A stretch of 64,000 nt of DNA from Acidaminococcus sp. GTDB taxonomy: Bacteria; Bacillota; Negativicutes; Acidaminococcales; Acidaminococcaceae. This document shows, piece after piece, positions 2,690 through 63,991 of this stretch. The notes beneath the pieces are model-generated. The model saw only the letters and a program-made list of their open reading frames with translations. It was not told where the DNA came from and made no database searches. A program made the translations under genes and the position numbers. Position 1 is the stretch's first letter; each line of letters opens with the position of its first letter. The stretch lies in NCBI GenBank assembly GCA_022482815.1, contig JAKVOM010000001.1:2252946-2316945 (forward strand), read 5' to 3'.

Positions 2690-3266
2690 AAAGCGGAGCT
2701 TTGGCGACAACATTCGCGCCTTCTTCGAGCGCAGCGAGGAAGAAGGGGTACCACAGTGGGCGTCGATTGACTTGGCAATCGCGCACACGGCCGTGGTGGA
2801 TATTCAGTTGGATAACAAGTGGGAATAAATAAGAGACTTAGAAAACAGCAGCACTCCTGGAGGTAGCCAAATCAAGATTTGGCTCAATTGAACCAGGACG
2901 ACCCGTGATCGTACCCATTCCTGCGTTCCGACTGAATACCCACCACGGACGGAAAGCGACTACGTCGCATTCCTGTGGTCCCTCCCTCTTAGTCGCCAAA
3001 ACCAGGCGACCAAGAGGGCCTGCTACGGCTATTTTTGTGTTATTATTGAAAACCGAAAGTTTATGCCCACAGAGACCTTCTTCGACGTCGCGGAGCGACA
3101 TTGAAGAAGGGGGCCCGCTTGCGGGGGATGATGTCCCTCTTATTTTTTTATTTTTTCTTTTGGCAAACCGACGAAGGAGGTTTGGCTACGAAGGACCTCC
3201 TTTCACGCCACTTCGTGGCGTCGAAAGGAGGAGAATCGCTTGCGATGGAGGATAGCTTCTTTTTCT
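2690..3266. repeat. Palindrome cluster, solo member of the DUF559-associated repeat family
   Basis: No real gene. Successive hairpins are visible: GCCAAAGC..GCTTTGGC, CTTCTTCGAG..GAAGAAG, then near 3079-3115 the family hairpin CTTCTTCGACGTCGC GGA GCGACATTGAAGAAG followed by CCCGC TT GCGGG. Later come CCTCCTTTC..GAAAGGAGG enclosing CGCCACTTCGTGGCG, and the family end GATAGCTTCTTTTT at 3252-3265. It lacks the DUF559 reading frame. Frames of about 100 codons here are by-products of the GC-rich palindromes. Confidence 0.6.
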
Positions 3267-12543: not shown

Positions 12544-12753
12544 GGCTTGTGATACAATGGTATCCAAGCCATTACACAATGTTTTTTACAGTTCCTCCTT
12601 TACTTCAGGTTGTTGGTCACAACTTACGTTGTAAAGGAAGCTGAAAAAAAATGTAATGGCTATTTTAGTTGAGCTAAATTTGGCGATTTCAGATGGCCTC
12701 TAATTGGTCATTTCAGTTGGGCTGTTTTTGGCGATTTCACCTGGTCCCTAACA
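12544..12753. repeat. 209-bp direct repeat, copy 1 (terminal-repeat array of a lost IS21-like element)
   Basis: Matches 17566-17774 in the same orientation, from GGCTTGTG..ACAATGG to CTGGTCCCTAACA. Read on the minus strand it begins TGTTAGGGACCAGGTGAAAT and carries iterated TGAAATCGCCAAA / TGAAATGACCAA / TAAAATAGCCAT motifs, the style of multiple terminal repeats in IS21-family ends. No transposase belongs to it here. Confidence 0.6.
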
Positions 12754-17565: not shown

Positions 17566-17774
17566 GGCTTGTGCTACAATGATACCCAAGTCATTACACA
17601 ATATTTTTCACAGTTTCTCCCTTACTCTAGATTGTTGGTCACAATTTATCTTGCAATGGAATCTGAAAAAAGTGTAATGGCTATTTTAGTTGAGCTAAAT
17701 TTGGCGATTTCAGATGGTCTCTAATTGTTCATTTCAGTTGGGCTGTTTTTGGCGATTTCACCTGGCCCCTAACA
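17566..17774. repeat. 209-bp direct repeat, copy 2
   Basis: Same orientation and content as 12544-12753, including the TGAAATCGCCAAA-type iterations and the CCCCTAACA end. The two copies bracket the IS21/IS3 composite. Confidence 0.6.
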
Positions 17775-40199: not shown

Positions 40200-40620
40200 C
40201 TCCCCTTTTTGAATTTGGTTATATTATAGGATGGATAAAAGGGAGAGAGGTCAGTTGGGAAGTGACAATAGGGGGAGATGGCAGATATTGGGTAATTAAT
40301 TGTACAGTAGTGCGGGAAGGTTGTTAGGCGAAGCATAAGGCAGATAGCAGTTAGCAGTTGGCAGTTAGCTGCCGTTAGCTGAAAGGCGCTTTTGGCTCTT
40401 CAAAAAGTGGTTAGTGGAAAAGTGGTTAGTACCGTAGTGCGGGCAGTGAGCTTGGCTGATTCTTAAGGCAGTTTAGTCAAAAAAGGCGCTTTTAGCGTTT
40501 GGCCAGGCCTTCGGCAGAATGGTACGGCCTGTGGCCGGAAAGAATAAAAAGCGCATTTGGCTTTTGGCATTTAGCCAGGTGTGCAAGAGGAAGATAAGGT
40601 GTGGGAATGGGGATTTAAAG
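40200..40620. repeat. Mixed short repeats, duplicated upstream of the 45.9-kb cassette
   Basis: Contains iterated AGATAGCAGTTAGCAGTTGG / CAGTTAGCTG words (about 40330-40385) and GTGGTTAGTGGAAAAGTGGT (about 40412). A closely similar order of words recurs at 45640-45940, so both cassettes sit in a longer duplicated segment. No gene. Confidence 0.5.
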
Positions 40621-41275
40621 ATTATATCATCCATTACAGAGACCTTCCTCGACGTCGCTGCGCGACATTGAGGAAGGGGGCCCGCTTTGCGGGGGATGAT
40701 GACCCTTATTACCTTCTTTCACTTCACGCAGTGAAGTAGAAAGAAGGAGGGCCATTTATGGCGGAAGATTTCTTTTTATTCCCCTTCCCTTCCACTTTTG
40801 GTTCATTCACACTTTCAATTGCACACTTTTACTTTGTTTTCCTGTATAGTAGCCGTATCTGCAATATCGTTGATTTTTAATGTGCTAAAGCTAAATTGAT
40901 TGTAGAGGTTGATGGGATCCAGCACAATGAGGAAGAAATTAAGGAATACGATACTAAAAGAACTGTGTTTCTCAAGAACAGAGGGTATGAAGTAATCAGG
41001 TTTTCTAATTCTTAGATTGCGCATGATCTATATGGGGTTGAAGAAAGAATAAAGAAAGTATTGGAGGAAAGATTAGGGAAAGAAGTTTAAAAGAGGTGTG
41101 AGAATTAACCGGTGGATTACTAGATTTTTGTTACTACTAACCGATAGAGAAGAAAAAATTTTTAAGGGACATCACCCACCGCAAGCGGTCCCCCCTCTTC
41201 AATGTCGCGCTGCGACGTCGAAGAGGGTCCCTAAAGAAGATTGATTTCTCTGCTGCCTTCTTTCGTAGCCAAGGC
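40621..41275. mobile_element. DUF559 cassette, copy A (decayed)
   Basis: Left end TATCATCCATTACAGAGACC; left palindromes CTTCCTCGACGTCGC..GAGGAAG, CCCGC TTT GCGGG and CTTCTTTC-ACTTCAC..GTGAAGT-GAAAGAAG; nuclease remnant; right palindromes CACCGCAAGCGGT and CCCTCTTC..GTCGC GCT GCGAC..GAAGAGGG at 41183-41227. The right terminal motif is not clear in this copy. Confidence 0.6.
40758..41090 (+). pseudogene. DUF559 nuclease remnant (copy A)
   Basis: Compared with intact copies it lacks 192 bases spanning the promoter, start and first half of the nuclease gene. It also has a TAA right after IVDF and a TAG at the Glu codon following FSNS. Non-functional. Confidence 0.75.
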
Positions 41276-41649
41276 TGCGCCTTGCCTGAATGAAATTGAA
41301 AAATAGTACTAAATTTGATATACTGTGATCACAATTGGGGTATACGTTTGCGGATGTGTACTTAAGAAGGTCATTGTTGGAGATTGAGTTCTCCAGCGAT
41401 GGCCTTCTTGTGATTTTAGGGGAATGAAATTAAAAAAGGCGTCAAAATTTGACTTTGGGTAAAGTTGAAATTAAAAAAATGGCGAATTTTTGACTCTGGC
41501 AAAAGTTGAAATTAAAAAATTTGCGTTTTTTTGAATTTCAAATTATAAATTCAAAAGTTAAAATACTAAAATCCTTGATTTTTTGTATTTCATGATATAT
41601 GATTTATAAAAAATCACGTTTTTTATAATCTTAGAAAAAGGAGGCAGCT
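41276..41649. other. Intergenic: terminator-like hairpin and three imperfect 42-base repeats before fic
   Basis: AAGAAGGTCATTGTTGGAGA (41364-41383) pairs with the arm at 41389-41409. Then from about 41420 to 41530 the unit TTGAAATTAAAAAA-GGCG-TTTGACT-TGGCAAAA appears three times. A promoter for fic must lie in or after these repeats. Confidence 0.5.
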
Positions 41650-42855
41650 ATGGATTATATTACATTGTACGATACATTCTATAAAATTCCCGATTCCTAT
41701 GAAAAGGCGTATGAAAGCAGGTTTAACAGTCCTTTTACCAAACATTTCAATTTCAACATTCATCAATATAATCATTCCAGATCTTACCCTGCCTTCTATT
41801 GCTATACCGAGGAAATTGCACTGCTGCAAGATCAAATTAACCGGGAATATCTTACGGGCAGACAAACATATTCTTCTATCCCCTATTCCGCCATTCTACA
41901 ATTTATCAAATTTAATCTGATTAATGAAGTTAAATCCAGTAACGACATTGAGGGAGTTCGGAGCACCCGTAAAGAAATCAAGTCTGCATTGGAAAACACT
42001 GCAGAAAAAAATAGACAGAGCGGCATTGTAAATAAATATATAATGCTAGTTTTAAATAAATCAGTACCCTTAAAAACATGCGAAGAAATTAAAAAACTCT
42101 ACGATGAAATGTTGCTCTTTGAAATTAATGAGGATGATCCGGGCAATTTGCCTGATGGGAAATATTTCAGGAAAAATAGTGTAGATGTGATTACCGGAAC
42201 AGGAAAAGTAATTCACCGGGGCTTGTATCCGGAAGAAAAAATCATTGATGGAATGAATAAAGCATTGGATATATTAAATAACCCCCAGCTTCCCTATTTA
42301 ATCCGGATAGCTTTGTTTCACTACCTTTTTGGTTATATTCATCCATTTTATGATGGTAATGGCCGCCTGGATAGATTTATTACAGCTTATTTAATTGCCA
42401 AAGAATATGGTCCCCTGGTCGGATTACAAGTTTCTATTCTCATCAAACAAGATAGAAAAAAATACTATTCTCTTTTTGAAAATACTGAGTCCGAAATCAA
42501 TAAAGGAGACTTAACGCCTTTTATTATTCAAACGCTTTATTTCATTCGGGACGCGATTCACAATATCAATGACGTGCTTACAAAAAAGAATACAGCGTAT
42601 CAAACGTTGTTAAAACAAATGCATGTAAAATTAAAAGACTGCGATCAAGTTACAATTAGATTATATGAACTGCTCCTGCAGGCCTCTTTATTTTCTGACG
42701 GCGGTATAACAATCAATGAAATTTCAAAGGCTCTGAAAAAAACAAAGCAAACTATATACTCCAGGTTACACCAGATTCCCGAAGATAGACTCTTTATTTC
42801 AAAAAATTCCAGGCCATTTCATTACAGGTTAAGAAAAGCTTGGGTGAAGGAGTAA
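41650..42855 (+). CDS. Fic-domain protein (AMP transferase, class II) with C-terminal helix-turn-helix
   Basis: 401 residues; ATG at 41650 behind AAGGAGGCAGCT. Fic motif HPFYDGNGRLDR is canonical (catalytic His, Gly-Asn-Gly-Arg). An inhibitory motif SSNDIEG about 120 residues before it places the autoinhibition helix on the N-terminal side (class II). Residues 340-395 hold a winged-helix-like end (INEISKALKKTKQTIYSRLH). Fic proteins attach AMP to hydroxyl side chains of targets. No antitoxin gene is adjacent. It is one of few plus-strand genes and is boxed in by repeat elements on both sides. Confidence 0.88.
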   Translation: MDYITLYDTFYKIPDSYEKAYESRFNSPFTKHFNFNIHQYNHSRSYPAFYCYTEEIALLQDQINREYLTGRQTYSSIPYSAILQFIKFNLINEVKSSNDIEGVRSTRKEIKSALENTAEKNRQSGIVNKYIMLVLNKSVPLKTCEEIKKLYDEMLLFEINEDDPGNLPDGKYFRKNSVDVITGTGKVIHRGLYPEEKIIDGMNKALDILNNPQLPYLIRIALFHYLFGYIHPFYDGNGRLDRFITAYLIAKEYGPLVGLQVSILIKQDRKKYYSLFENTESEINKGDLTPFIIQTLYFIRDAIHNINDVLTKKNTAYQTLLKQMHVKLKDCDQVTIRLYELLLQASLFSDGGITINEISKALKKTKQTIYSRLHQIPEDRLFISKNSRPFHYRLRKAWVKE

Positions 42856-42923
42856 GAAAGATAAAAGCAGCATAAATAATTAATGGTTTTTTATTATTAA
42901 ACAAGGCATAAGTTTTAATGAAT

Positions 42924-43168
42924 AAAAAGATTCTATCCATCCACCACAGGGACCTTCCTCGACGTAGCGCAGTGACGTCGAAGAGGGTCCCTAAAAATTT
43001 ACCGCAGCTGTTTTTAATATTTTCTTCTGGCAATCCGACGTCAGGAGGGTTGCCCTCCTCAAAACCTCCTTCCAAACCACTATGTGGTTTCGGAAGGAGG
43101 GGGCCCGCAGGAAGCACTGACGATTAGTCAAGGCTGACGAGAGCGGGGAAAGATAGCTTCTTTTTTTA
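42924..43168. repeat. Solo DUF559-family repeat without nuclease gene
   Basis: About 245 bp: left end AAAAAGATTCTATCCATCC, palindromes CTTCCTCGACGTAGC..and GAAGAGGG, CCTCCTTCC-AAACCAC TAT GTGGTTT-C-GGAAGGAGG, right end GAAAGATAGCTTCTTTTTTT. The two ends are inverted relative to each other. This is a minimal, non-autonomous version of the cassettes. Confidence 0.65.
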
Positions 43169-43190
43169 TTTTCCCTCCTTCCCCACACCA

Positions 43191-43222
43191 AAAAAAGCCA
43201 CCCGGCGCCGGGTGGCTTTTTT
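43191..43222. terminator. Terminator of panC
   Basis: A nearly perfect palindrome: AAAAAAGCCACCCGG CG CCGGGTGGCTTTTTT. It lies 32 bases past the panC stop and can work both ways. Confidence 0.9.
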
Positions 43223-43254
43223 ATCTTCACACTTTTCCTTTGACTTTAATTCCT

Positions 43255-44103
43255 TTAATCCAGGATTACGTTATCGATCAGTCTTGTCTTACCTACGTAG
43301 CAAGCGATGGCCATGAGGCATTCGCCTTTGACGGTTTTGATTTCGTCAAGGTACGGGAAGGTCAGGATTTCGACGTAATCGATTTGTTTTACGAAGGGTT
43401 CGGCTTCGAGGTGATCACGGACGATTTTCTTCAGGGTTTCGACGTCGCGTTCGCCTTTGTCATACGCTGCCTTGCCGAGCTTCAGGCTTTCGTACAGGAC
43501 GACGGCCTTGGCGCGTTCTTCGGGGCTCATGTATTCGTTGCGGGAACTGCGGGCGAGTCCGCTGGGTTCACGTACGATAGGAACCATGTTGATGTGGCAG
43601 TTGATGTTCAGGTCTTCGACAAAACGACGAACGACGCAAACCTGCTGGGCATCTTTCTGGCCGAAGAAGGCTTCATCGGCGCGAGCCAGGTTGATGAGCT
43701 TTGTGACGACGGTAGCGACGCCGCGGAAGTGAATGGGTCTCGTAGCTCCGCACAGTTTGTGGGTGAATTCGCCTTCGACGTTCACGTACGTGCAGAAGTG
43801 TTCGGGATACATTTCCTTGGGTTCCGGATGGAACACGGCATCTACACCGACGCTTTCGAGTTTCTTTTCATCTTCACCAAAGCGGCGCGGATATTTTTCA
43901 TAGTCTTCGTTCGGGCCGAACTGGGTCGGGTTGACGAATACGGAAGCGATGACAACATCACATTTAGCACGAGCCGTGCGCATCAGGGTCAGATGGCCTT
44001 CATGCAGGGCTCCCATGGTCGGAACAAGGCCGATGGTCTTGCCGGCTTTTTTAGCGTTCAGTGCAAATTCCTGGATTTCTTTAACAGTACGTAATACCTT
44101 CAT
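43255..44103 (-). CDS. panC: Pantoate-beta-alanine ligase
   Basis: 282 residues. Adenylate-forming ligase of the cytidylyltransferase type: VPTMGALHEGHLTLM (HxGH-like), SVFVNPTQFGPNEDYEKYPR, FFGQKDAQQVCVVRRFVEDL and SSRNEYMSPEER. It joins pantoate and beta-alanine with ATP to make pantothenate. Length normal. 34 bases follow the panS-like transporter gene, so the two are one unit. Confidence 0.95.
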   Translation of the reverse strand: MKVLRTVKEIQEFALNAKKAGKTIGLVPTMGALHEGHLTLMRTARAKCDVVIASVFVNPTQFGPNEDYEKYPRRFGEDEKKLESVGVDAVFHPEPKEMYPEHFCTYVNVEGEFTHKLCGATRPIHFRGVATVVTKLINLARADEAFFGQKDAQQVCVVRRFVEDLNINCHINMVPIVREPSGLARSSRNEYMSPEERAKAVVLYESLKLGKAAYDKGERDVETLKKIVRDHLEAEPFVKQIDYVEILTFPYLDEIKTVKGECLMAIACYVGKTRLIDNVILD

Positions 44104-44137
44104 GGTTATATGCCTCTTTTCAAGCTAGTTGGAAAAA

Positions 44138-45103
44138 TCAATTGTGAGCTGATCCGGTGTTTTCAGCAGCAGCGACCGCTTTGGCTTCATCATGACGGGT
44201 GAAGTAATTGGCCAGCAGGGAACCGGAAATGTTATGCCATACACTGAAGATGGCACCTGCAATGGCACCGGCCGGCGTGAAATACATCACTGCGAGAGAT
44301 GCAGCCAGACCGGAGTTCTGCATGCCGACTTCGATAGCCACAGCGCGGGTCTTGGCCGGAGAAAGCCGGAAAAGACGAGCCATGCCATAACCGAGCAGCA
44401 GACCGAACAGGTTGTGCAGTACAACGACTCCGGCAATGAGAGCGCCGCTTTCAAACAGGCGGGAAGCACTCAGGGAAACAACACCACCGACGAGAAGGAC
44501 GATGCAGACGACGGAGACGAACGGCATGTATTCGCGAATAGGAGCGACTTTGGATTCAAAGTGCGTATTCACGAAGAGGCCGCCCAGTACCGGGAGCAGC
44601 ACCATCTTGGCGATAGAAACCATCATGGCCGTCAGGGAAATTTCAATCCAGGATCCGGCCAGATAATACGTAAGTACCGGCGTCACAATCGGCGCCAATA
44701 AGGTTGTGCAGCAGGTCATGGCCACAGACAGGGCCACATCACCTTTTGCCAGGTAGGTAATGACGTTCGACGCGGTACCACCGGGGCAGGTGCCTACAAG
44801 AATAACACCGATAGCCAGTTCCGGCGGCAGGTTGAAGAGCTTTACCAGCGCCCAAGCCACAAATGGCATGATGGTAAACTGAGCAAAGGCACCAATTGCA
44901 ACTTCCCATGGCCGATGCAGAATAAAACGAAAGTCGTCGACTTTCAAAGTCATCCCCATACCAAACATGACGATACCCAGCATCCAGGGAATTACTGGAC
45001 CAACCCAGGACAGGGTCCATGGCCAATTTGCTCCAATAACGCCGATAAGGACGACAAACAGCGCCATGTTTTTCACAGCAAATCGCAAGATTTTCTTGAT
45101 CAA
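44138..45103 (-). CDS. panS: BASS-family transporter, PanS-like (probable ketopantoate/pantoate uptake)
   Basis: About 321 residues from a TTG at 45103 that has GGGGGGAT five bases upstream; a GTG 13 codons earlier is the alternative. About nine to ten hydrophobic segments; bile-acid:Na+ symporter family signatures NLPPELAIGVILVGTCPGGT-ASNVITYLAKGDVALSV and AIEVGMQNSGLAASLA. Members next to pan genes (PanS) import pantothenate precursors, and the adjacency to panC supports that here. Symbol is by inference. Confidence 0.75.
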   Translation of the reverse strand: MIKKILRFAVKNMALFVVLIGVIGANWPWTLSWVGPVIPWMLGIVMFGMGMTLKVDDFRFILHRPWEVAIGAFAQFTIMPFVAWALVKLFNLPPELAIGVILVGTCPGGTASNVITYLAKGDVALSVAMTCCTTLLAPIVTPVLTYYLAGSWIEISLTAMMVSIAKMVLLPVLGGLFVNTHFESKVAPIREYMPFVSVVCIVLLVGGVVSLSASRLFESGALIAGVVVLHNLFGLLLGYGMARLFRLSPAKTRAVAIEVGMQNSGLAASLAVMYFTPAGAIAGAIFSVWHNISGSLLANYFTRHDEAKAVAAAENTGSAHN

Positions 45104-45600
45104 AACGATCCCCCCAATAATTTTTGGGCGCAAAAAATCCACATCCTGCGAATGGATGTTGCGCCATAATCTATGAGAGCAATAATCAAACAGGCAGTCC
45201 TAAATCCTTGTTTGAAAATTTTTCATCGTGCTTCAGCCGTTTCCTGACACTTCTACGATTTTGTCGATTAGGCTGAATTACGTTCAGATGAACCATCGTG
45301 ACCGGCAACGCCAACGTAGTAACGCAGACCGTCGCCTCCCCTGCTCTTTTCTGCGGGCCTCATCACGCAGAAAATGCTGCTAAGTAAAGAAGTATCCAAA
45401 CCGCAGCCTGAGACAAACACGAAAGCACTGGAACGTACAAACCACACTATGAAATTTTCTCAATACAAAAGATCAGGATCACCTTGTTTAATTAGTGTCT
45501 CCTAATTCGGCAGCTGCACCTGCAGCCTATTCATTTGTACCGATCCTCTTTATCACACGAGGGACATTATAAACCGCTAACTGGGGAAAGTCAAGGTCTG
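45104..45600 (-). ncRNA. Long structured leader upstream of panS-panC (candidate RNA)
   Basis: No gene fits. On the minus strand several stems are visible: GGCTGCAGGTGCAGCTGCC near 45510-45530, TTTTCTGCG..CGCAGAAAA near 45349-45378, and GGCTGAA..TTCAGCC pairings near 45235-45290. Sequence is GC-richer than the repeats around it. I could not match it to a known riboswitch or T-box. Confidence 0.35.
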
Positions 45601-45940
45601 CGTGACATTTTGGGGGTGAGGTTAACAATAAGTGTAAAGACAGGAAGTGGTTAGTGGGTAGGAATTAGGGGTTAGTACGCTAGTGCGGGCAGTTTTTTTA
45701 GGCGAAGCCTTAGGCAGATAGCAGTTGGCAGTTAGCAGTTGGCTGCTGTTAGCGGAGCCTTCGGCAGAGTGGAATGCCTACGGCTTTTAATTAAACTTTT
45801 CTCCCCCACTTCGTGGTCCGTCCTCCTTCCTAAAGGACGGAGGTGGCAGCGGAACTCCAAACCTTACGGTTTGGCTTAATGGAGGGCGCTTTTGGCGTTT
45901 GGCCAGGTGTGCAAAAGGAAGATAAGGTGTGAGAATGAGA
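45601..45940. repeat. Short-repeat tract duplicated from 40.2-40.6 kb
   Basis: GTGGTTAGTGGG, TAGTGCGGGCAG, then AGATAGCAGTTGGCAGTTAG-type iterations, and GGTGTGCAAAAGGAAGATAA occur in the same order as before copy A. A GTCCTCC..GGAC palindrome lies around 45820. No gene. Confidence 0.5.
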
Positions 45941-46728
45941 TGAAAAATTCTATCATCCATCACAGGGACCTTCCTCGACGTCGCTGCGCGACATTGAGGA
46001 AGGGGGCCCGCTTTGCGGGGGATGATGACCCTTATTACCTTCTTTCACTTCACGTAGTGAAGTAGAAAGAAGGAGGGCCATTTATGGCGGAAGATTTCTT
46101 TTTATTCCCCTGCGCTTCCAATTTTGGTTCATTCACACCTTCAACTGCACACTTTTATTTTGTTTTCCTGTATAGTAGCCGAATCTGCAATATCGTTGAT
46201 TTTTGCTGTGCTAAAGCTAAATTGATTGTAGAGGTCGATGGAATCCAACACATTGAGGAAGAAATTGAAGAATATGATGCTAAAAGAACTGTGTTTCTCA
46301 AGAACAGAGGGTATGAAGTAATCAGGTTTTCTAATTCTTAGATTGCGCATGATCTATATGGGGTTGAAGAAAGAATAAAGAAAGTATTGGAGGAGAGATT
46401 GAGGAAAAAAATATAAAAGAGATGTGAAAATTAACCGATGAATTACTAGATTTTTGTTACTGCTGACCGATAGTGAAGAAAAAAATTTTAAGGGACGTCA
46501 CCCACCGCAAGCGGTTCCCCCTCTTCAATGTCGCGCTGCGACGTCGAAGAGGGTCCCTAAAAATTTATCACAGCCGTTTTTAATATTTTCTTCCGGCAAT
46601 CCGACGTCAGGAGCCTTGCCTTCCTCACAACCTCCTTCCAAACCACTACGTGGTTTCGGAAGGAGGGGGCCCACAGGAAGCACTGACGGCAGTCAGGGCT
46701 GACGAATGTGGGGGAAGATAGCGGTTTT
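45941..46728. mobile_element. DUF559 cassette, copy B (nuclease gene deleted)
   Basis: Left end TTCTATCATCCATCACAGGG; left hairpin as in copy A (CTTCCTC/GAGGAAG); right part with CACCGCAAGCGG, CCCTCTTC..GAAGAGGG, CCTCCTTCC-AAACCAC TAC GTGGTTT-GGAAGGAGG; right end GAAGATAGCGGTTTT. Full palindrome set, dead nuclease gene. Confidence 0.65.
46084..46416 (+). pseudogene. DUF559 nuclease remnant (copy B)
   Basis: An open stretch of 85 codons remains (..SSRICNIVDFCCAKAKLIV.. to FSNS-stop), but the same 192-base deletion as in copy A removed the promoter, start and first half, and the same Glu-to-TAG change ends it early. The join ('CTGC-AATATCG') falls at a CTATAT word that occurs at both deletion ends in intact copies. 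Confidence 0.75.
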
Positions 46729-46782
46729 ATTCTTAATTATTTTTTCTTTTTTCTCCTCTTCTCTCTTTTTTCCCATAAAAAA

Positions 46783-46820
46783 GTGCTGTGAAGAAACGAA
46801 CTAACATTTCTTCACAGCAC
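46783..46820. terminator. Terminator after pncB
   Basis: GTGCTGTGAAGAAA pairs with TTTCTTCACAGCAC around about 10 bases, A-run on the left. A nearly identical hairpin follows the DUF1275 gene. Confidence 0.75.
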
Positions 46821-46909
46821 GCGTAACATCATTATCTTTTCGCGCCTCTGGCGCCACATGCCGCCGGAGGCGGCCAAGGCTTTTTCTGCGCGGAGCGCCA
46901 CAGCGTCTC

Positions 46910-48557: not shown

Positions 48558-49537
48558 AAAACATTCTATCCGTCAACCGTAAGGACCTTCTTCGACGCCG
48601 CTCTGCGGCATTGAAGAAGGGGGCCCGCTTTGCGGGGGATGATGACCCTTATTACCTTCTTTCACTTCACGTAGTGAAGTAGAAAGAAGGAGGGCCATTT
48701 ATGGCGGAAGATTTCTTTTTATTCCCCTTCGCTTCCACTTTTGGTTCATTCGCACCTTCAACTGCACACTTTTACTTTGTTTTCCTGTATAGTAGCCGTA
48801 TCTACTATATAAAAATTCTACAATTGGAGGTACTCATGGACAGAGGAAGAAAAGCAGTTACACTCGCAGAATATGATGAACTACGAAAAAATGCAAGAAT
48901 GATGCGTAAAAACATGACCGTAGTCGAAAAAATTTTATGGTATCAAGTTCTTAAGAAACTTTCTGTGCGGTTCTTAAGGCAAAAAATTATTTATTATTAT
49001 ATCGTTGATTTTTACTGTGCAAAAGCAAAATTAATTGTAGAGGTCGATGGAATCCAACACACTGAAAAAGATGTTGAGGAATATGATGCTAAAAGAACTG
49101 CATTTCTCAGGAGCAGAGGGTATGAATTAATCAGATTTTCTAATTCTGAAATTGCACATGATCTGTATGGGGTTGAAGATAGAATAAAGAAAGTCTTGGA
49201 GGAGAGATTAGGGAGGGAAGTATAAAGAGGTATGAGCATTAACCGGTAGATTGCTAGATTTTGTTACTGCTAACCGATAGTGAAGAAAAAATTTTTAAGG
49301 GACATCACCCACCGCAAGCGGTTCCCCCTCTTCAATGTCGCGCGGCGACGTCGAAGAGGGTCACTAAAAATTTACCGCAGATGTTTTTAATTTTTCCTTT
49401 AGGCAATCCGACGTCAGGAGGGTTGCCTTCCTCACAACCTCCTTCCAAACCACTACGTGGTTTCGGAAGGAGGGGGCCCGCAGGAAGCACTGACGACTGT
49501 CAGGGCTGACGAGTGCGGGGGAAGATAGCGTATTTTT
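48558..49537. mobile_element. DUF559 cassette, copy C (intact)
   Basis: Left end AAAACATTCTATCCGTCA; left hairpin in the CTTCTTC-GACGCCGC TCT GCGGC-ATT-GAAGAAG version; CCCGC TTT GCGGG; CTTCTTTC-ACTTCAC GTA GTGAAGT-GAAAGAAG; intact gene; then CACCGCAAGCGG, CCCTCTTC..GTCGC GCG GCGAC..GAAGAGGG, CCTCCTTCC..GGAAGGAGG and right end GAAGATAGCGTATTTTT. Confidence 0.7.
48836..49225 (+). CDS. DUF559 (VSR-like PD-(D/E)XK) nuclease, copy C
   Basis: 129 residues from the ATG at 48836 behind GGAGGTACTC. DUF559 core: VEKILWYQVLKKL, then YIVDFYCAKAKLIVEVDGIQ with the metal-binding Asp and E-x-D expected of the very-short-patch-repair-like nuclease fold, then a YDAKRTAFLRSRGYELIRFS block. The open frame extends 45 codons upstream to another ATG with a perfect AAGGAGG, but copy E is frameshifted there, so the short form is preferred. 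A TTGTAT-17-TATAA-like promoter lies just upstream. Confidence 0.8.
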   Translation: MDRGRKAVTLAEYDELRKNARMMRKNMTVVEKILWYQVLKKLSVRFLRQKIIYYYIVDFYCAKAKLIVEVDGIQHTEKDVEEYDAKRTAFLRSRGYELIRFSNSEIAHDLYGVEDRIKKVLEERLGREV

Positions 49538-49576
49538 CTTTATTCTCCCCTTCTCTCTCCTTCTCCACAACAAAAA

Positions 49577-49613
49577 GCGCTGTGAAGAAACAAATTTCAT
49601 TTCTTCACAGCAC
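49577..49613. terminator. Terminator after the DUF1275 gene
   Basis: GCGCTGTGAAGAAA pairs with TTTCTTCACAGCAC, the same sequence as the terminator after pncB with a different loop. Confidence 0.75.
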
Positions 49614-49654
49614 TTGTAATATCGTTGTTTTTTGCGCGTAAGCGCCACAGCTTC

Positions 49655-54016: not shown

Positions 54017-54873
54017 AAAAGATTCTATCCGTCAATCTCAGGGACTTTCTTCGACGCCGCTTTGCGGCATTGAAGAAGGGGGCCCGCTTTGCGGGGGATG
54101 ATGACCCTTATTACCTTCTTTCACTTCACGCAGTGAAGTAGAAAGAAGGAGGGCCATTTATGGCGGAAGATTTCTTTTTATTCCCCTTCGCTTCCACTTT
54201 TAGTCCATTCGCACCTTCAACTGCACACTTTTACTTTGTTTTCTTGTATAGTAGCCGTATCTGCTATATAAAATTTCTACAATTGGAGGTACTCATGGAC
54301 AGAGGAAGAAATGCAGTTTCGTTCGCAGAATATGATGAACTACGAAAAAATGCAAGAATGATGCGTAAAAACATGACTGTAGTCGAAAAAATTTTATGGT
54401 ATCAAGTTCTTAAGAAACTTCCTGTACGATTCTTAAGGCAAAAAATTATTTATTACTATATCGTTGATTTTTACTGTGCAAAAGCAAAATTAATTGTAGA
54501 GGTCGATGGAATCCAACACACGGAAAAAGAAATTGAGGAATATGATGCTAAAAGGACAGCGTTTCTTAAGAACAGAGGGTATGAAGTAATCAGGTTTTCT
54601 AATTCTGAGATTGCGCATGATTTGTATGGGGTTGAAGAAAGAATAAAGAAAGTCTTGGAGGAGAGATTAGGGAGGGAAGTATAAAGAGGTATGAGCATTA
54701 ACCGGTAGATTGCTAGATTTTTGTTACTACTAACCGATAGAGAAGAAAAAATTTTTAAGGGACATCACCCACCGCAAGCGGTCCCCCCTCTTCAATGTCG
54801 CGTTGCGACGTCGAAGAGGGTCCCTAAAGATGTTTGATTTCCTGCGGATGCGGGGAATGATAGCTTCTTTTTT
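54017..54873. mobile_element. DUF559 cassette, copy D (intact, inside the his cluster)
   Basis: Left end AAAAGATTCTATCCGTC, left hairpins in the GAAGAAG/GCCGC version, intact nuclease gene, right hairpins CACCGCAAGCGG and CCCTCTTC..GTCGC GTT GCGAC..GAAGAGGG, right end ATGATAGCTTCTTTTTT. The CCTCCTTCC palindrome seen in copies B and C is absent. Confidence 0.7.
54295..54684 (+). CDS. DUF559 (VSR-like PD-(D/E)XK) nuclease, copy D
   Basis: 129 residues, ATG at 54295 behind GGAGGTACTC. It differs from copy C at a handful of residues (e.g. NAVSFAEY for KAVTLAEY, KLPVRFL for KLSVRFL, KNRGYEVIRF for RSRGYELIRF), while the putative catalytic YIVDF and IVEVDG are kept. Plus strand, opposite to the his genes around it. 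Confidence 0.8.
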   Translation: MDRGRNAVSFAEYDELRKNARMMRKNMTVVEKILWYQVLKKLPVRFLRQKIIYYYIVDFYCAKAKLIVEVDGIQHTEKEIEEYDAKRTAFLKNRGYEVIRFSNSEIAHDLYGVEERIKKVLEERLGREV

Positions 54874-57086: not shown

Positions 57087-57112
57087 AAGAACACTCACCT
57101 CTCAAATTTACT

Positions 57113-57841
57113 GAGTGGCTAGTGGTTAGTGAGTAGTGGTTAGTACACCCGCAATTAAGAATTATGTCGCTGATTCCTGAGAAAGTGAATCAGCTTCCTT
57201 AACTTATAAGCGAGTGCATTACTAGTGTCCTCTTCTTCACTCAACACCTTCTTAGAAGTTTCCGAATGAGGGCACTGGTCATTTTGATAATTTCTGTGGC
57301 TTCACCATTAATACTATTAAAAGTTGCTGCATCTACGAACTTTCTCATCCTGCAAATCAGTATTTGAGTTTTTACTTCAGAAAGTGATCCTCTTGCTATA
57401 TACAGGAAATGCACAAATTCTTTTGTTGAGTGTCTTCCATAACCCTCAGCAATATTGAGGGATATCGAAGTTACAGCCCGACGCATTTGCTTATCAAGAG
57501 CATATCTCTCATCAGAAGGTAATTGCTCAAGCACATCATAAATGACGTCCGCTAACGCAACAGATCTCTGCCAAATTTCTAAATCTTCATAACTACGAAT
57601 CATATTCTTCCTCCAATGTTACGAATTTTGCAGGCACTCAATATGCCTACTAGCTGCAAAAAGTCCCAAAATTTTTACTGGTATAGATGCAAAGATATAT
57701 CTATTGTACAAAATTTTGTACTTAAAAGCAACGAAACACAGAGAAAAAATCACAATTCTAAGAAAAACTAGCTATTAAAAATTGCGATACAAACTGCTGC
57801 GCCGATTGTACTAACCACTTTCCACTAGCCACTAACCACTC
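57113..57841. mobile_element. Four-helix-bundle gene cassette bounded by 34-bp inverted repeats
   Basis: Left end 57113-57146 (GAGTGGCTAGTGGTTAGTGA..GTGGTTAGTAC) and right end 57808-57841 are inverted repeats matching at 29 of 34 positions by my count. Between them lies a single gene. The cassette splits hisB from hisH. The same repeat occurs alone at 4498-4530 and in related form at about 40412 and 45648. Confidence 0.6.
57241..57603 (-). CDS. Four-helix-bundle protein (23S rRNA intervening-sequence type)
   Basis: 120 residues with the family (PF05635) pattern: YEDLEIWQRSVALADVIYDV, LPSDERYALDKQMRRAVTSI, SLNIAEGYGRHSTKEFVHFL and ARGSLSEVKTQILICR. ATG at 57603 behind GGAGGAAG. Relatives are often encoded inside 23S rRNA intervening sequences or scattered through genomes; function unknown, probably nucleic-acid binding. 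No rRNA is nearby. Confidence 0.88.
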   Translation of the reverse strand: MIRSYEDLEIWQRSVALADVIYDVLEQLPSDERYALDKQMRRAVTSISLNIAEGYGRHSTKEFVHFLYIARGSLSEVKTQILICRMRKFVDAATFNSINGEATEIIKMTSALIRKLLRRC

Positions 57842-57847
57842 TATTTT

Positions 57848-59598: not shown

Positions 59599-60041
59599 GA
59601 GTGTTTACCTCCTAGGAAATGTTTAAGATATACGAAAATTTACTAACACATTGCTATACTTTTGTAACTACTAACCTATACAGAAGGTTAGAAGAAGTTT
59701 AAGGGTCATCACCCACCGCTTACCGGAAGTCCCGATACCATCGGGCCTTCCTGCGGTCCCCCCTCTTCAATGTCGCACAGCGACGTCGAAGAGGGTCTCT
59801 AGTGCCTCGATTGGGGTTTAGTTTGGATTTTACAGGTGCTTAATCGTACCAATCCCTGTTATCCTACTGAATACCCACCGCAAGTGGTCCCCCCTCTTAT
59901 TTTTTTTACAAAAAAACAAGAGGGCTGCTGCTCTAATTGGAGATTTGGTTTGAATTTTACAGGTGTTCTATCGTACCAATTCCTGTTAGCCTACTGAATC
60001 CCCACCGCTGGCGGCTGAAATTGAAATTTTGATTTCTAAAT
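59599..60041. repeat. Repeat tract replacing hisD position
   Basis: 59690-59805 is a DUF559-family right half (CATCACCCACCGC, then CCCTCTTCAATGTCGCACAG and GACGTCGAAGAGGG). Then a unit with TTTACAGGTG..TCGTACCAAT..CCTGTTA..CTACTGAAT..CCCACCGC occurs twice, about 130 bases apart; a more diverged third copy is near 2890-2945. No part can be read as histidinol dehydrogenase. Confidence 0.55.
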
Positions 60042-62374: not shown

Positions 62375-63200
62375 AAAAAAAGAAGCTATCATCCACTGCA
62401 AGGACCTTCTTCGACGCCGCTTTGCGGCATTGAAGAAGGGGGCCCGCTTTGCGGGGGATGATGACCCTTATTACCTTCTTTCACTTCACGCAGTGAAGTA
62501 GAAAGAGGAGGGCCATTTATGGCGGAAGATTTCTTTTATATTCCCCTTTACTTCCATTTTTGGTCCATTCGCACCTTCAACTGCACACTTTTACTTTGTT
62601 TTCCTGTATAGTAGCCGTATATGCTAAATAAAATTTCTACAATTGGAGGTACTCATGGACAGAGGAAGAAATGCAGTTTCGTTCGCAGAATATGATGAAC
62701 TACGAAAAAATGCAAGAATGATGCGTAAAAACATGACCGTGGTTGAAAAAATTTTATGGTATCAAGTTCTTAAGAAACTTCCTGTACGATTCTTAAGGCA
62801 AAAAATTATTTATTATTATATCGTTGATTTTTACTGTGCAAAAGCAAAATTAATTGTAGAGGTCGATGGGATTCAACATACTGAAAAAGATGTTGAGGAA
62901 TATGATGCTAAAAGAACTGCATTTCTCAGGAGCAGAGGGTATGAATTAATCAGATTTTCTAATTCTGAGATTGCACATGATCTGTATGGGGTTGAAGATA
63001 GAATAAAGAAAGTCTTGGAGGAGAGATTAGGGAGGGAAGTATAAAGAGGTATGAGCATTAACCGGTAGATTGCTAGATTTTGTTACTGCTAACCGATAGT
63101 GAAGGAAAAATTTTTAAGGGACATCACCCACCGCAAGCGGTTCCCCCTCTTCAATGTCGCGCAGCGACGTCGAAGAGGGTCACTAAAGATGTTTGAGTTC
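62375..63200. mobile_element. DUF559 cassette, copy E (intact gene)
   Basis: Left end AAAAAAGAAGCTATCATCC is the clearest inverted counterpart of the GATGATAGCTTCTTTT ends of other copies. Left hairpins in the GAAGAAG/GCCGC TTT GCGGC version; intact gene; right CACCGCAAGCGG and CCCTCTTC..GTCGC GCA GCGAC..GAAGAGGG to 63181. It then runs into a second, partial repeat at 63260-63325. Confidence 0.7.
62655..63044 (+). CDS. DUF559 (VSR-like PD-(D/E)XK) nuclease, copy E
   Basis: 129 residues, ATG at 62655 behind GGAGGTACTC. N-terminal half is like copy D (NAVSFAEY, KLPVRFL), C-terminal half like copy C (TEKDVEEY, LRSRGYELIRF, GVEDRIKK), so it looks mosaic. Upstream of this ATG the frame open in copies C and D is broken by an indel (TTCTTTTATATTCCCC), which supports this start. 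Confidence 0.8.
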   Translation: MDRGRNAVSFAEYDELRKNARMMRKNMTVVEKILWYQVLKKLPVRFLRQKIIYYYIVDFYCAKAKLIVEVDGIQHTEKDVEEYDAKRTAFLRSRGYELIRFSNSEIAHDLYGVEDRIKKVLEERLGREV

Positions 63201-63325
63201 TTCTTAGATTTTTTCTATGCGGCTCCGCTCGTTGCGGCTTCGGAAGGTTCCTACAAAAAATTTACTTAGCTGTGTTAGATTTTTATTGCTGCTGACAGAT
63301 ACTGAAGAAAAAAATTTTAAGGGAC
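63201..63325. repeat. Partial right-half repeat carrying the intron
   Basis: GCGGCTCC..CGTTGCGGC words, then TGTTAGATTTTTATTGCTGC and AAAAAAATTTTAAGGGACGT, the start of another family right half; it is interrupted by the intron at 63326. Confidence 0.55.
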
Positions 63326-63991
63326 GTCGAGTAGACGGGTCGAGTTGCCTCGCCCGCCCCTCACAGAACCGTACGTGCGGTTTTCCCGCATACGGCTCTT
63401 AGAATAATCTTTCAGCACCATATCTGCACTCTTGCACTCGGTGCCTTAATTTCTGTGTCGCAATTTCCATTATGGTAACCTCTTTGTCTTACCTTCTGTT
63501 TTGAGACAGAAATCGATTATTCTTTGCCCCCTTCGCTCCGCCTACTTTCATAGGTTTCATCACTACTATGAGGCAATCCGACTACTGACTCAGCTTTTGC
63601 CAACCTCCGTACAGTTAAGTATTTAAGTCAGCATACCATTGTCCCTTGGACTGAGTCAGTTCTCCCAGGTACATGAATAGTGTTTGTGTACTCGCCGTGC
63701 ACTTGGACCCCGATGGAACTCTGTGCAGTTCTCGCCGCAGTTTCCTGCTAACGAACTGTACGCTTCTGCCTGCGACCGGTGATAAGGTATCGGCTTCCAT
63801 ATTACGGTTAACGAGGCTGATTCTGCTTTACGCCTTGCTCATCGCATTTGGCATTACGGCTCTCACACTCCCTGTCTACGCTTCATGCTCACCTCACGGC
63901 TCTGCATGCAAGACTCGGTACCAGCTGCTTGCTAGGCTTTACTGGATTCGGACTTTCACCGAACTATACTATTCACGCCGAACTGGCGCAC
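63326..63991 (-). ncRNA. Group II intron, about 666 nt, without intron-encoded protein
   Basis: On the minus strand it starts GTGCGCCAGTTCGGCGTG (63991) and contains GGTGAAAGTCCGAATCC-type domain I sequence. Domain V lies at 63365-63398: 34 nt, GAGCCGTATGCGG, GAAA loop, CCGCACGTACGGTTCT. Domain VI-like sequence follows to 63326. The exons GTGGGTGAC and GTCCCTTAAA join to the uninterrupted repeat found at about 46490-46505. No reverse transcriptase frame fits; only a 23-codon stub (MEIATQKLRHRV..) precedes domain V. Confidence 0.75.

Follow-up and report, generated by a model that had tools for sequence, protein, structure and literature searches.

How do two copies of a broken nuclease gene, standing near each other on one chromosome, come to carry the same deletion and the same nonsense codon? 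The locus that raises this question lies in Acidaminococcus sp. (GenBank assembly GCA_022482815.1, contig JAKVOM010000001.1), within the 64,000-nucleotide stretch that was analysed as a whole and is here called the window (positions 2252946-2316945 of the single-contig 3.06-Mb genome). The gene encodes a DUF559 protein and sits in a short element bounded by palindromes, of which the window holds two truncated copies, A and B, and three full-length ones. The initial annotation had held that a dead nuclease copy was duplicated, and that copying of a segment of about 1 kb by recombination was favoured over mobilisation in trans. The account that we prefer, and to which we give slightly better than even chances, is that A and B are two decayed, gene-broken copies of a small mobile element, in which a nuclease would drive the spread of a hairpin unit, A and B would have spread as a palindrome-bounded module, and gene conversion would have acted later.

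Copies A and B share one deletion and one nonsense codon

Six copies of the element, five from the window and one from elsewhere in the genome, were aligned at base level. The copies are as follows:

40638-41233, + strand: copy A, DUF559 element lacking 192 bp internally (junction 40862/40863); stop codons TAA (40878-40880) and TAG (41013-41015)
45964-46559, + strand: copy B, same deletion as A (junction 46188/46189), TAG at 46339-46341, open 85-aa frame at 46084-46341
48583-49366, + strand: copy C, full length, DUF559 gene intact, ATG at 48836
54039-54826, + strand: copy D, full length (788 bp), DUF559 gene intact at 54295-54684, between hisI and hisF (opposite strand)
62399-63185, + strand: copy E, full length, DUF559 gene intact, ATG at 62655
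genome 1901409-1902186, - strand: copy F, 90% identity, reading frame broken, without the 192-bp deletion

Copies A-E all lie between open reading frames (ORFs); the gene names used here (hisF, hisI, hisB, pncB) are those that we presume from the sequences. Exactly 192 bases are missing from both A and B relative to C, D and E, with the identical junction TCTGC/AATATCG, and in both copies the Glu codon after FSNS has changed from GAG to TAG (A 41013-41015, B 46339-46341), as the initial annotation had described. The endpoints agree at base level, so chance or independent origin of the deletion is excluded. The claimed loss between two CTATAT words needs correction, since the junction reads CAATAT in both A and B and the left word in F is CAAAAT; CTATAT microhomology as the source of a simple recombination product was not supported, because the junction bases need one extra change. 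The deletion had also been said to remove promoter and start. The start is indeed gone, together with the GGAGG ribosome site and codons 1-54, but loss of the promoter is not supported: A and B still have a TATAGT, noticed by eye, on the upstream side of the deletion. A scan of the + strand upstream of the gene in the intact copy D found no sigma-70-like site. The 192 lost bases are divisible by three, so the deletion is in frame: in B an 85-aa frame (46084-46341) is still open as far as the TAG, and A has an extra TAA at 40878-40880 in addition to the TAG. The proteins of A and B would lack the N-terminal 54 residues and end before the last helix.

Biallelic sites in the six-copy alignment included the patterns AB/CDEF (10 sites), ABF/CDE (11 sites) and ABDF/CE (11 sites), and the ten AB-specific sites were distributed across the element. 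Identity was 94.2% between A and B (600 sites), 96.7% between C and E, and 90.8% between A and F. In the tree, the branch joining A and B had an ultrafast bootstrap of 94 with outgroups and 93 without them, and C and E grouped with D. The deletion, the TAG and this clade support a single history shared by A and B. That part of the earlier claim of duplication stands; the further part, by which the copy had already died when it was duplicated, is doubtful for reasons given below.

The sequence common to A and B ends at the right palindrome

The surroundings of A and B contain the following features:

40638-40706, + strand: left two-hairpin palindromic unit of A
41163-41233, - strand: inverted counterpart of that two-hairpin unit, on the right side of A
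40560-40637, + strand: 78-bp leader of A, also present at B (45888-45963), at F (1.902 Mb) and, without DUF559, at 2.341 Mb
40302-40382, + strand: upstream short-repeat island, matched at B (45675-45756) and at least 28 other places
42949-42991, + strand: scar with B-like flanks, reduced to the outer arms of one left and one right unit

Continuous similarity between A and B extended over 676 bp at 93% identity (40560-41235 versus 45888-46561). Its right end coincided with the outer edge of the right palindrome, and its left end lay 78 bp beyond the left palindrome. Farther upstream, the island at 40302-40382 matched 45675-45756 at 84%. The upstream tracts of A and B therefore do match in this island, as had been noted, but the match is generic: tract 40225-40636 gave at least 57 genome matches including itself and B (40 of 252 candidate places scored), and at least 28 of these, beyond A and B, overlapped the island. 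The 78-bp leader also adjoins F on its left (1.90 Mb), and at 2.341 Mb it stands before an unrelated palindrome with no DUF559 gene. To the right of A there is an F-like continuation of about 33 bp (by eye); to the right of B the sequence is like that at C (81% over 296 bp) and like that at the 42.95-kb scar (90% over 153 bp). The genes flanking A and B gave no DNA-level match.

The wider match had been taken to favour segmental duplication. Because the upstream match recurs through the genome and the leader occurs elsewhere without the deletion, segmental duplication is not favoured. Judging from these alignments, the wider similarity of A and B is part of a generic mosaic of intergenic regions in this genome, and the unit common to the two copies appears to be bounded by palindromes. 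The 42.95-kb scar may be a further deletion derivative.

Substitutions between A and B suggest late exchange between copies

The coding remnants of A and B differ by six synonymous and three nonsynonymous codon differences (stop codons left out), versus 7.8 nonsynonymous differences expected under random substitution at the observed transition/transversion ratio (P 0.003). The longest identical tract is 115 bp (40954-41068) and contains the TAG (P 0.006); around the deletion junction, A and B are identical for just 22 bp, between differences at 40856 and 40879. The leader had the highest density of differences (15.4%, 12/78), and the palindromes had few (1.6% and 2.7%). The small number of protein-changing differences, with the TAG inside the longest identical tract, indicates that the TAG may have spread by gene conversion, and the shortness of the junction tract suggests descent for the deletion. 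The order of events may thus have been a deletion passed on by descent, followed by gene conversion that possibly carried the TAG. This substitution pattern weakens the claim that a dead nuclease copy was duplicated.

The element is bounded by inverted two-hairpin units

The full element is about 785 bp long. It begins with the left unit, followed by a second hairpin and the DUF559 gene, and closes with the right unit, which is inverted with respect to the left one. Inverted units were present on both sides of C, D, E and F, and pairwise matches among the copies in this genome ran 0-57 bp beyond the units. Each unit is about 70 bp long, with a first hairpin of 15 pairs and a second of 5 pairs. 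We collected 41 units (29 distinct), 11 of them in copies A-F and 30 elsewhere in the genome, the latter being a minimum for related units outside the six copies. Across the 41 units, 99.7% of cells were paired, compared to 94.6% in shuffles, and sliding the partner by 1-3 columns reduced pairing to 42-65%. In 4 of 20 pairs, a total of 34 cells were changed on both sides, versus 11.5 in shuffles (0/500 as high); the counts of doubly changed pairs (4) and of further pair types (5) were not above shuffles (228/500 and 500/500 as high, respectively). The pattern used to choose the units accepted either base wherever a stem column varies; invariant columns are therefore uninformative.

A search with the right unit gave at least 40 matches in this genome and none in eight other species of the genus. 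No Rfam family matched the unit within 40000-64000; two group II intron matches beyond E were above their gathering score, and two other matches were below theirs. At the site of copy D, the alignment ends of hisF and hisI are 1179 bp apart, compared to 3 bp in five of eight other species of the genus and 120, 143 and 282 bp in the remaining three. The closest relative (G001) has the same his gene order without copy D.

Two other gaps among the his genes were observed. Between hisH and hisB, the interval 57087-57847 holds a 120-aa gene (57241-57603), whose product we take to be of four-helix-bundle type, with short repeats beside it (by eye); only 89 bp are present at this place in G001, so the interval is another lineage-specific insertion. 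In the 528-bp hisC-hisG gap (110 bp in G001), a unit-derived palindrome with a different second hairpin occupies 59650-59801.

The DUF559 protein is predicted to have a Vsr-like nuclease fold

The only gene in the element encodes a DUF559 protein (PF04480, E ∼1e-33); a match to the NCBIfam DUF559 entry PRK09767 was below cut-off. The AlphaFold2 model had a mean predicted local distance difference test score of 93.1. Foldseek comparison of structures returned the homing endonuclease catalytic domain of I-Bth0305I (3r3p, E 2.1e-5), a Neisseria endonuclease-like protein (3hrl, ngo0050, E 2.7e-5) and Vsr (1vsr, E 0.06), and a profile search returned 3hrl (E 5.6e-28) and 3r3p (E 1.8e-5). Residues E30, D57, D70, H74 and R99 were among those invariant in 41 sequences. 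On the strength of the model and these matches, the protein is predicted to have the fold of the Vsr/I-Bth0305I (EDxHD) group of nucleases. PADLOC returned weak matches only, the best being to a homing endonuclease model (8.5e-6). The ratio of nonsynonymous to synonymous substitution rates (dN/dS) was 0.09-0.16 among the intact paralogues C, D and E and 0.14-0.40 for five other pairs within the genome; these low values indicate that the protein is kept under constraint while copies multiply.

DUF559 genes in other genomes are frequently flanked by repeats

Two sets of DUF559 loci were scored for flanking repeats, with a repeat match score of at least 30 as the criterion. The class set began with 54 hand-picked Negativicutes loci outside the Acidaminococcus genome (G000) that had stand-alone matches of about 52 bits or more; a split frame in G065 was not among the 54, and a match of 52.2 bits (L143 of G173) was placed with the weak controls. 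One locus with a short flank (L133) was dropped, leaving 53 loci from 26 genomes, some of the loci being syntenic orthologues. The controls were 16 weak PF04480 homologues, 13 of them testable. The second set came from a contig collection and comprised the best 80 of 570 matches (79 with an ORF, 76 testable), mostly from clostridial metagenome-assembled genomes; the titles of three among the 80 (L162, L208 and L232) mark them as Negativicutes, and the two sets are to that extent not wholly separate.

Inverted flanking repeats were found at 31 of 53 class-set loci, and repeats in either inverted or direct orientation at 41 of 53. The corresponding values for the weak homologues were 0/13 and 1/13. 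Among the best 80 of 570 matches in the second set, 41 of 76 loci had inverted flanks and 47 of 76 had flanks in either orientation; for 113 neighbour genes from these loci the corresponding numbers were 4 and 5. At least one repeat-flanked DUF559 locus was present in 24 of the 26 class-set genomes, G008 and G003 having none. Within 100 bp of the gene, inverted repeats dominated over direct ones at 18 versus 9 of 53 loci in the class set and at 28 versus 15 of 78 in the contig set. One genome, G022, contains a 553-bp element of this build twice on one contig, 2.4 kb apart and at 99.6% identity; the breakpoints lie at the outer hairpins, the sequence outside differs, and the DUF559 gene is the only ORF inside.

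A plasmid collection held 36 DUF559 records, and 8 of the 12 examined scored at least 30 for inverted flanks; the windows were set by match rather than by ORF and had neither shuffles nor neighbour controls, which makes this result a lead only. These eight matches (L266, L268, L269, L270 and L272-L275) came from Neisseria, Sinorhizobium meliloti, Novosphingobium, Sphingomonas, Azospirillum lipoferum, Sphingobium, Deinococcus and Pseudanabaena, and their repeats were mostly G+C-rich palindromes. The Pseudanabaena match lies inside a longer annotated coding sequence.

High counts of the palindrome signature coincide with DUF559 genes

The inner half of the unit carries the signature GGGGACCG-N(2-24)-CGGTGG, which was counted in 200 genomes of the class. 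A genome was scored as a DUF559 genome if it had a match of at least 60 bits, a line drawn after the match list had been seen. Of the 25 DUF559 genomes, 12 had at least ten signature sites; the 175 others all stayed below ten, with 9 as the highest count (Fisher P 8.5e-13, not corrected for kinship). A reversed control pattern reached 17 and 11 in two genomes that had 3 and 2 signature sites. Within genus g52, the carriers of DUF559 had 26, 35 and 35 sites, versus 0, 7, 4, 0, 2, 0 and 0 in the non-carriers. As a separate observation, recurrent inverted pairs of signature sites, 187-199 bp apart, were seen in two species (G002 and G006), the former without a DUF559 match; these pairs are possibly similar to REPINs, the paired form of repetitive extragenic palindromic (REP) sequences.

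REP sequences are associated elsewhere with a Y1 transposase (REP-associated tyrosine transposase, RAYT), and matches to Y1_Tnp were compared with the signature counts. The Acidaminococcus genome has six Y1_Tnp matches. Among the 12 palindrome-rich genomes, six had no Y1_Tnp match at E <= 0.001, including those with 84 and 71 sites, and Y1 presence was not associated with high counts (Fisher P 0.56). RAYT/IS200 as the general mover was rejected, as Y1_Tnp went unmatched in half of the rich genomes.

Other features of the window

Further fragments of the element and its units were located at the following positions:

3069-3138, + strand: solo palindromic unit
63273-63328, + strand: right-end fragment of another copy (element positions 673-728)

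Element positions 719-788 were matched 3.2 kb beyond the fragment at 63273-63328, at genome 2319493-2319562, with the group II intron matches between them. These matches (Rfam RF00029 and RF02005, minus strand) run from 63326 to 63956 and continue beyond the end of the window, possibly as far as about genome 2319493. The right unit of a mostly lost copy just downstream of E appears to contain this group II intron. Another palindromic repeat family (about 200-300 bp, 81-90% alike) is present at 42953-43194, 46519-46858 and 49326-49649, and at these three places it adjoins the right unit of the element or the scar. A gene of the Fic/DOC family (PF02661, E 7.3e-13) occupies 41650-42855, between copies A and B. 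Direct repeats of 210 bp (12544-12753 and 17566-17774, 89.5% identity) flank a block with genes that we take to be IS21-like and IS3-like.

Discussion

The preferred account of A and B supposes that the DUF559 nuclease recognises the hairpin unit, as a folded single strand or a cruciform, and nicks or cuts there. The element, or any stretch bounded by units, would then be copied into intergenic sites by repair or strand transfer, either as RAYT is thought to act for REP sequences or by break-repair copying as in homing. Gene-less copies (A, B, the 42.95-kb scar and the solo units) would be non-autonomous remnants that are still moved in trans or reshuffled. An ancestor would have lost 192 bp once; A and B would be its descendants, spread as a palindrome-bounded module with a common leader rather than as a chromosomal segment, and later gene conversion among copies would have homogenised some stretches, perhaps including the TAG.

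Two alternatives concern the history of A and B themselves. Ordinary recombination could have copied about 1 kb of chromosome, including an already dead A, to the position of B. The 78 bp of similarity past the left palindrome and the matching island farther upstream would fit such an event, but that island overlaps at least 28 other genome matches, the leader recurs at F and, without DUF559, at 2.341 Mb, the match stops at the edge of the right palindrome, and the flanking genes share no DNA-level similarity; we therefore consider this history improbable. Stronger, though still short of even, is the chance that A and B are separate insertions, each once intact, between which the TAG and perhaps the deletion were later copied by gene conversion. 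The deficit of protein-changing differences and the 115-bp identical tract over the TAG argue for it, as do mosaic site patterns (e.g., ABDF/CE at 11 sites) and the right flanks, which are like that of C at B and like that of F at A. The 22-bp identical tract at the junction speaks for descent of the deletion, and ten AB-specific sites spread across the element likewise count against this alternative.

The other two alternatives concern what moves the palindromes. They could be ordinary REP sequences moved by a Y1 (RAYT or IS200-like) transposase encoded elsewhere in the genome, in keeping with the six Y1_Tnp matches and with an architecture of solo hairpin units and inverted pairs around a gene that resembles REP/RAYT; given the rich genomes that lack a Y1_Tnp match and the lack of association between Y1 presence and high counts, we regard this as very improbable. 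A less remote reading, yet one that we find rather unlikely, makes DUF559 a passenger, such as a Vsr-like gene of repair or restriction, with the palindromes moved otherwise or with palindrome-rich intergenic regions merely tolerating the gene. A published study (PMC12907096) connects the DUF559 protein VsrA of Caulobacter with cytosine methylation and with DNA damage, and some DUF559 loci have no repeat flanks at all. Neighbour genes in the same loci, by contrast, are seldom repeat-flanked (5/113 versus 47/76), only DUF559 genomes had high signature counts in the search of 200, and in G022 the gene is the only ORF of a sharply bounded unit that occurs twice.

Several observations weigh against a nuclease-driven, palindrome-bounded element. 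Repeat flanks were absent from 12 of 53 class-set and 29 of 76 second-set DUF559 loci, and a paralogue in the Acidaminococcus genome (L005) had a flank score below 30. The flanking units are not always inverted: over 300 bp, direct repeats dominated over inverted ones at 24 versus 13 of 52 class-set loci, an excess that is apparently due to arrays. Thirteen of the 25 DUF559 genomes had fewer than 10 signature sites (several have other two-hairpin units, by eye), and G002 and G007 have seven sites each without DUF559 (control pattern 4 and 3). The empty sites show gene order only, the intergenic flanks of G001 being too diverged for a target site to be read at base level. Some pairs of copies share sequence past the units (57 bp on the left of C/E, about 15 bp on the right of D/E), and no target-site duplication was recognised by eye. 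Protein-level constraint between A and B is unlike simple decay in trans. Neither movement nor cleavage was observed.

Compared with known systems, the element resembles REP sequences and REPINs with their RAYT (the "REPtron"): short intergenic palindromes in tens of copies, many of them solitary; a small nuclease gene enclosed by inverted copies; derivatives without coding sequence; and no other mobility gene. Structure-conserved units that occur solo and paired were found here as well, 30 of 41 lying away from A-F. The nuclease differs, being DUF559 (PD-(D/E)XK, Vsr-like) rather than an HUH Y1 transposase, as does the unit, with its length of about 70 bp and its two hairpins. In Di Nocera et al. 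2013 (PMC3733652), RAYT is the hypothesised mover of GTAG REPs, and CGTC REPs are reported without a dedicated transposase. The unpaired GTAG tag described there at the hairpin foot was absent from the alignment of 41 units. The CGTC REPs offer a precedent for REP-like palindromes lacking a transposase of their own; as described in that paper, they have a single hairpin with an 8-9-bp stem, a 4-5-nt loop and an unpaired CGTC end, whereas the units here have two hairpins (15-pair and 5-pair) and no CGTC end. The EDxHD homing endonuclease I-Bth0305I (3r3p) has the same predicted fold and belongs to nucleases thought to drive their own spread; its PDB entry is a mobile intron protein, whereas DUF559 here lies in an intergenic, palindrome-bounded unit. 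Homing endonuclease genes are located in an intron, an intein or the cleaved gene and have the empty site as their substrate, in contrast to A-E, which stand between ORFs. Vsr, a mismatch repair enzyme whose nicking of T:G mismatches is linked to a cytosine methyltransferase, and Caulobacter VsrA belong to the same fold family, and VsrA carries DUF559, but the published role of VsrA (PMC12907096) is linked to cytosine methylation, and this element has no methyltransferase. As short, inverted-repeat-bounded, broken-gene derivatives of a gene-bearing element, A and B resemble miniature inverted-repeat transposable elements (MITEs), from which they differ in lacking a recognised target-site duplication and in having a parent outside the known transposase families. 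We infer from these features that the element resembles REP/RAYT or a homing gene in its working and is a member of neither.

No report linking DUF559 with palindromic repeats was found in the literature covered, which excluded most subscription journals. In two papers, a DUF559 gene is placed beside mam (PMC8836110) and DUF559 is treated as an EDxHD family, among inteins (PMC9403480).

That DUF559 genes stand between hairpin repeats in many bacteria is suggestive of a kind of mobile DNA that has drawn little notice. REP-like palindromes are widespread among bacterial genomes, and we propose, tentatively and at somewhat less than even odds, that a large class of them, independent of RAYT, has DUF559 nucleases as its dedicated movers in Negativicutes, Clostridia and other phyla, with derivatives of the A/B type as MITE-like riders. 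The question is approachable with a 130-residue protein and 70-base oligonucleotides. If the proposal is true, DUF559, a widespread nuclease family annotated as being of unknown function, would gain a role and transposase-less palindromic repeats would gain a mover, and the spread of hairpin-bounded DNA by a Vsr/homing-type nuclease, not a transposase, would constitute a class of mobile element.

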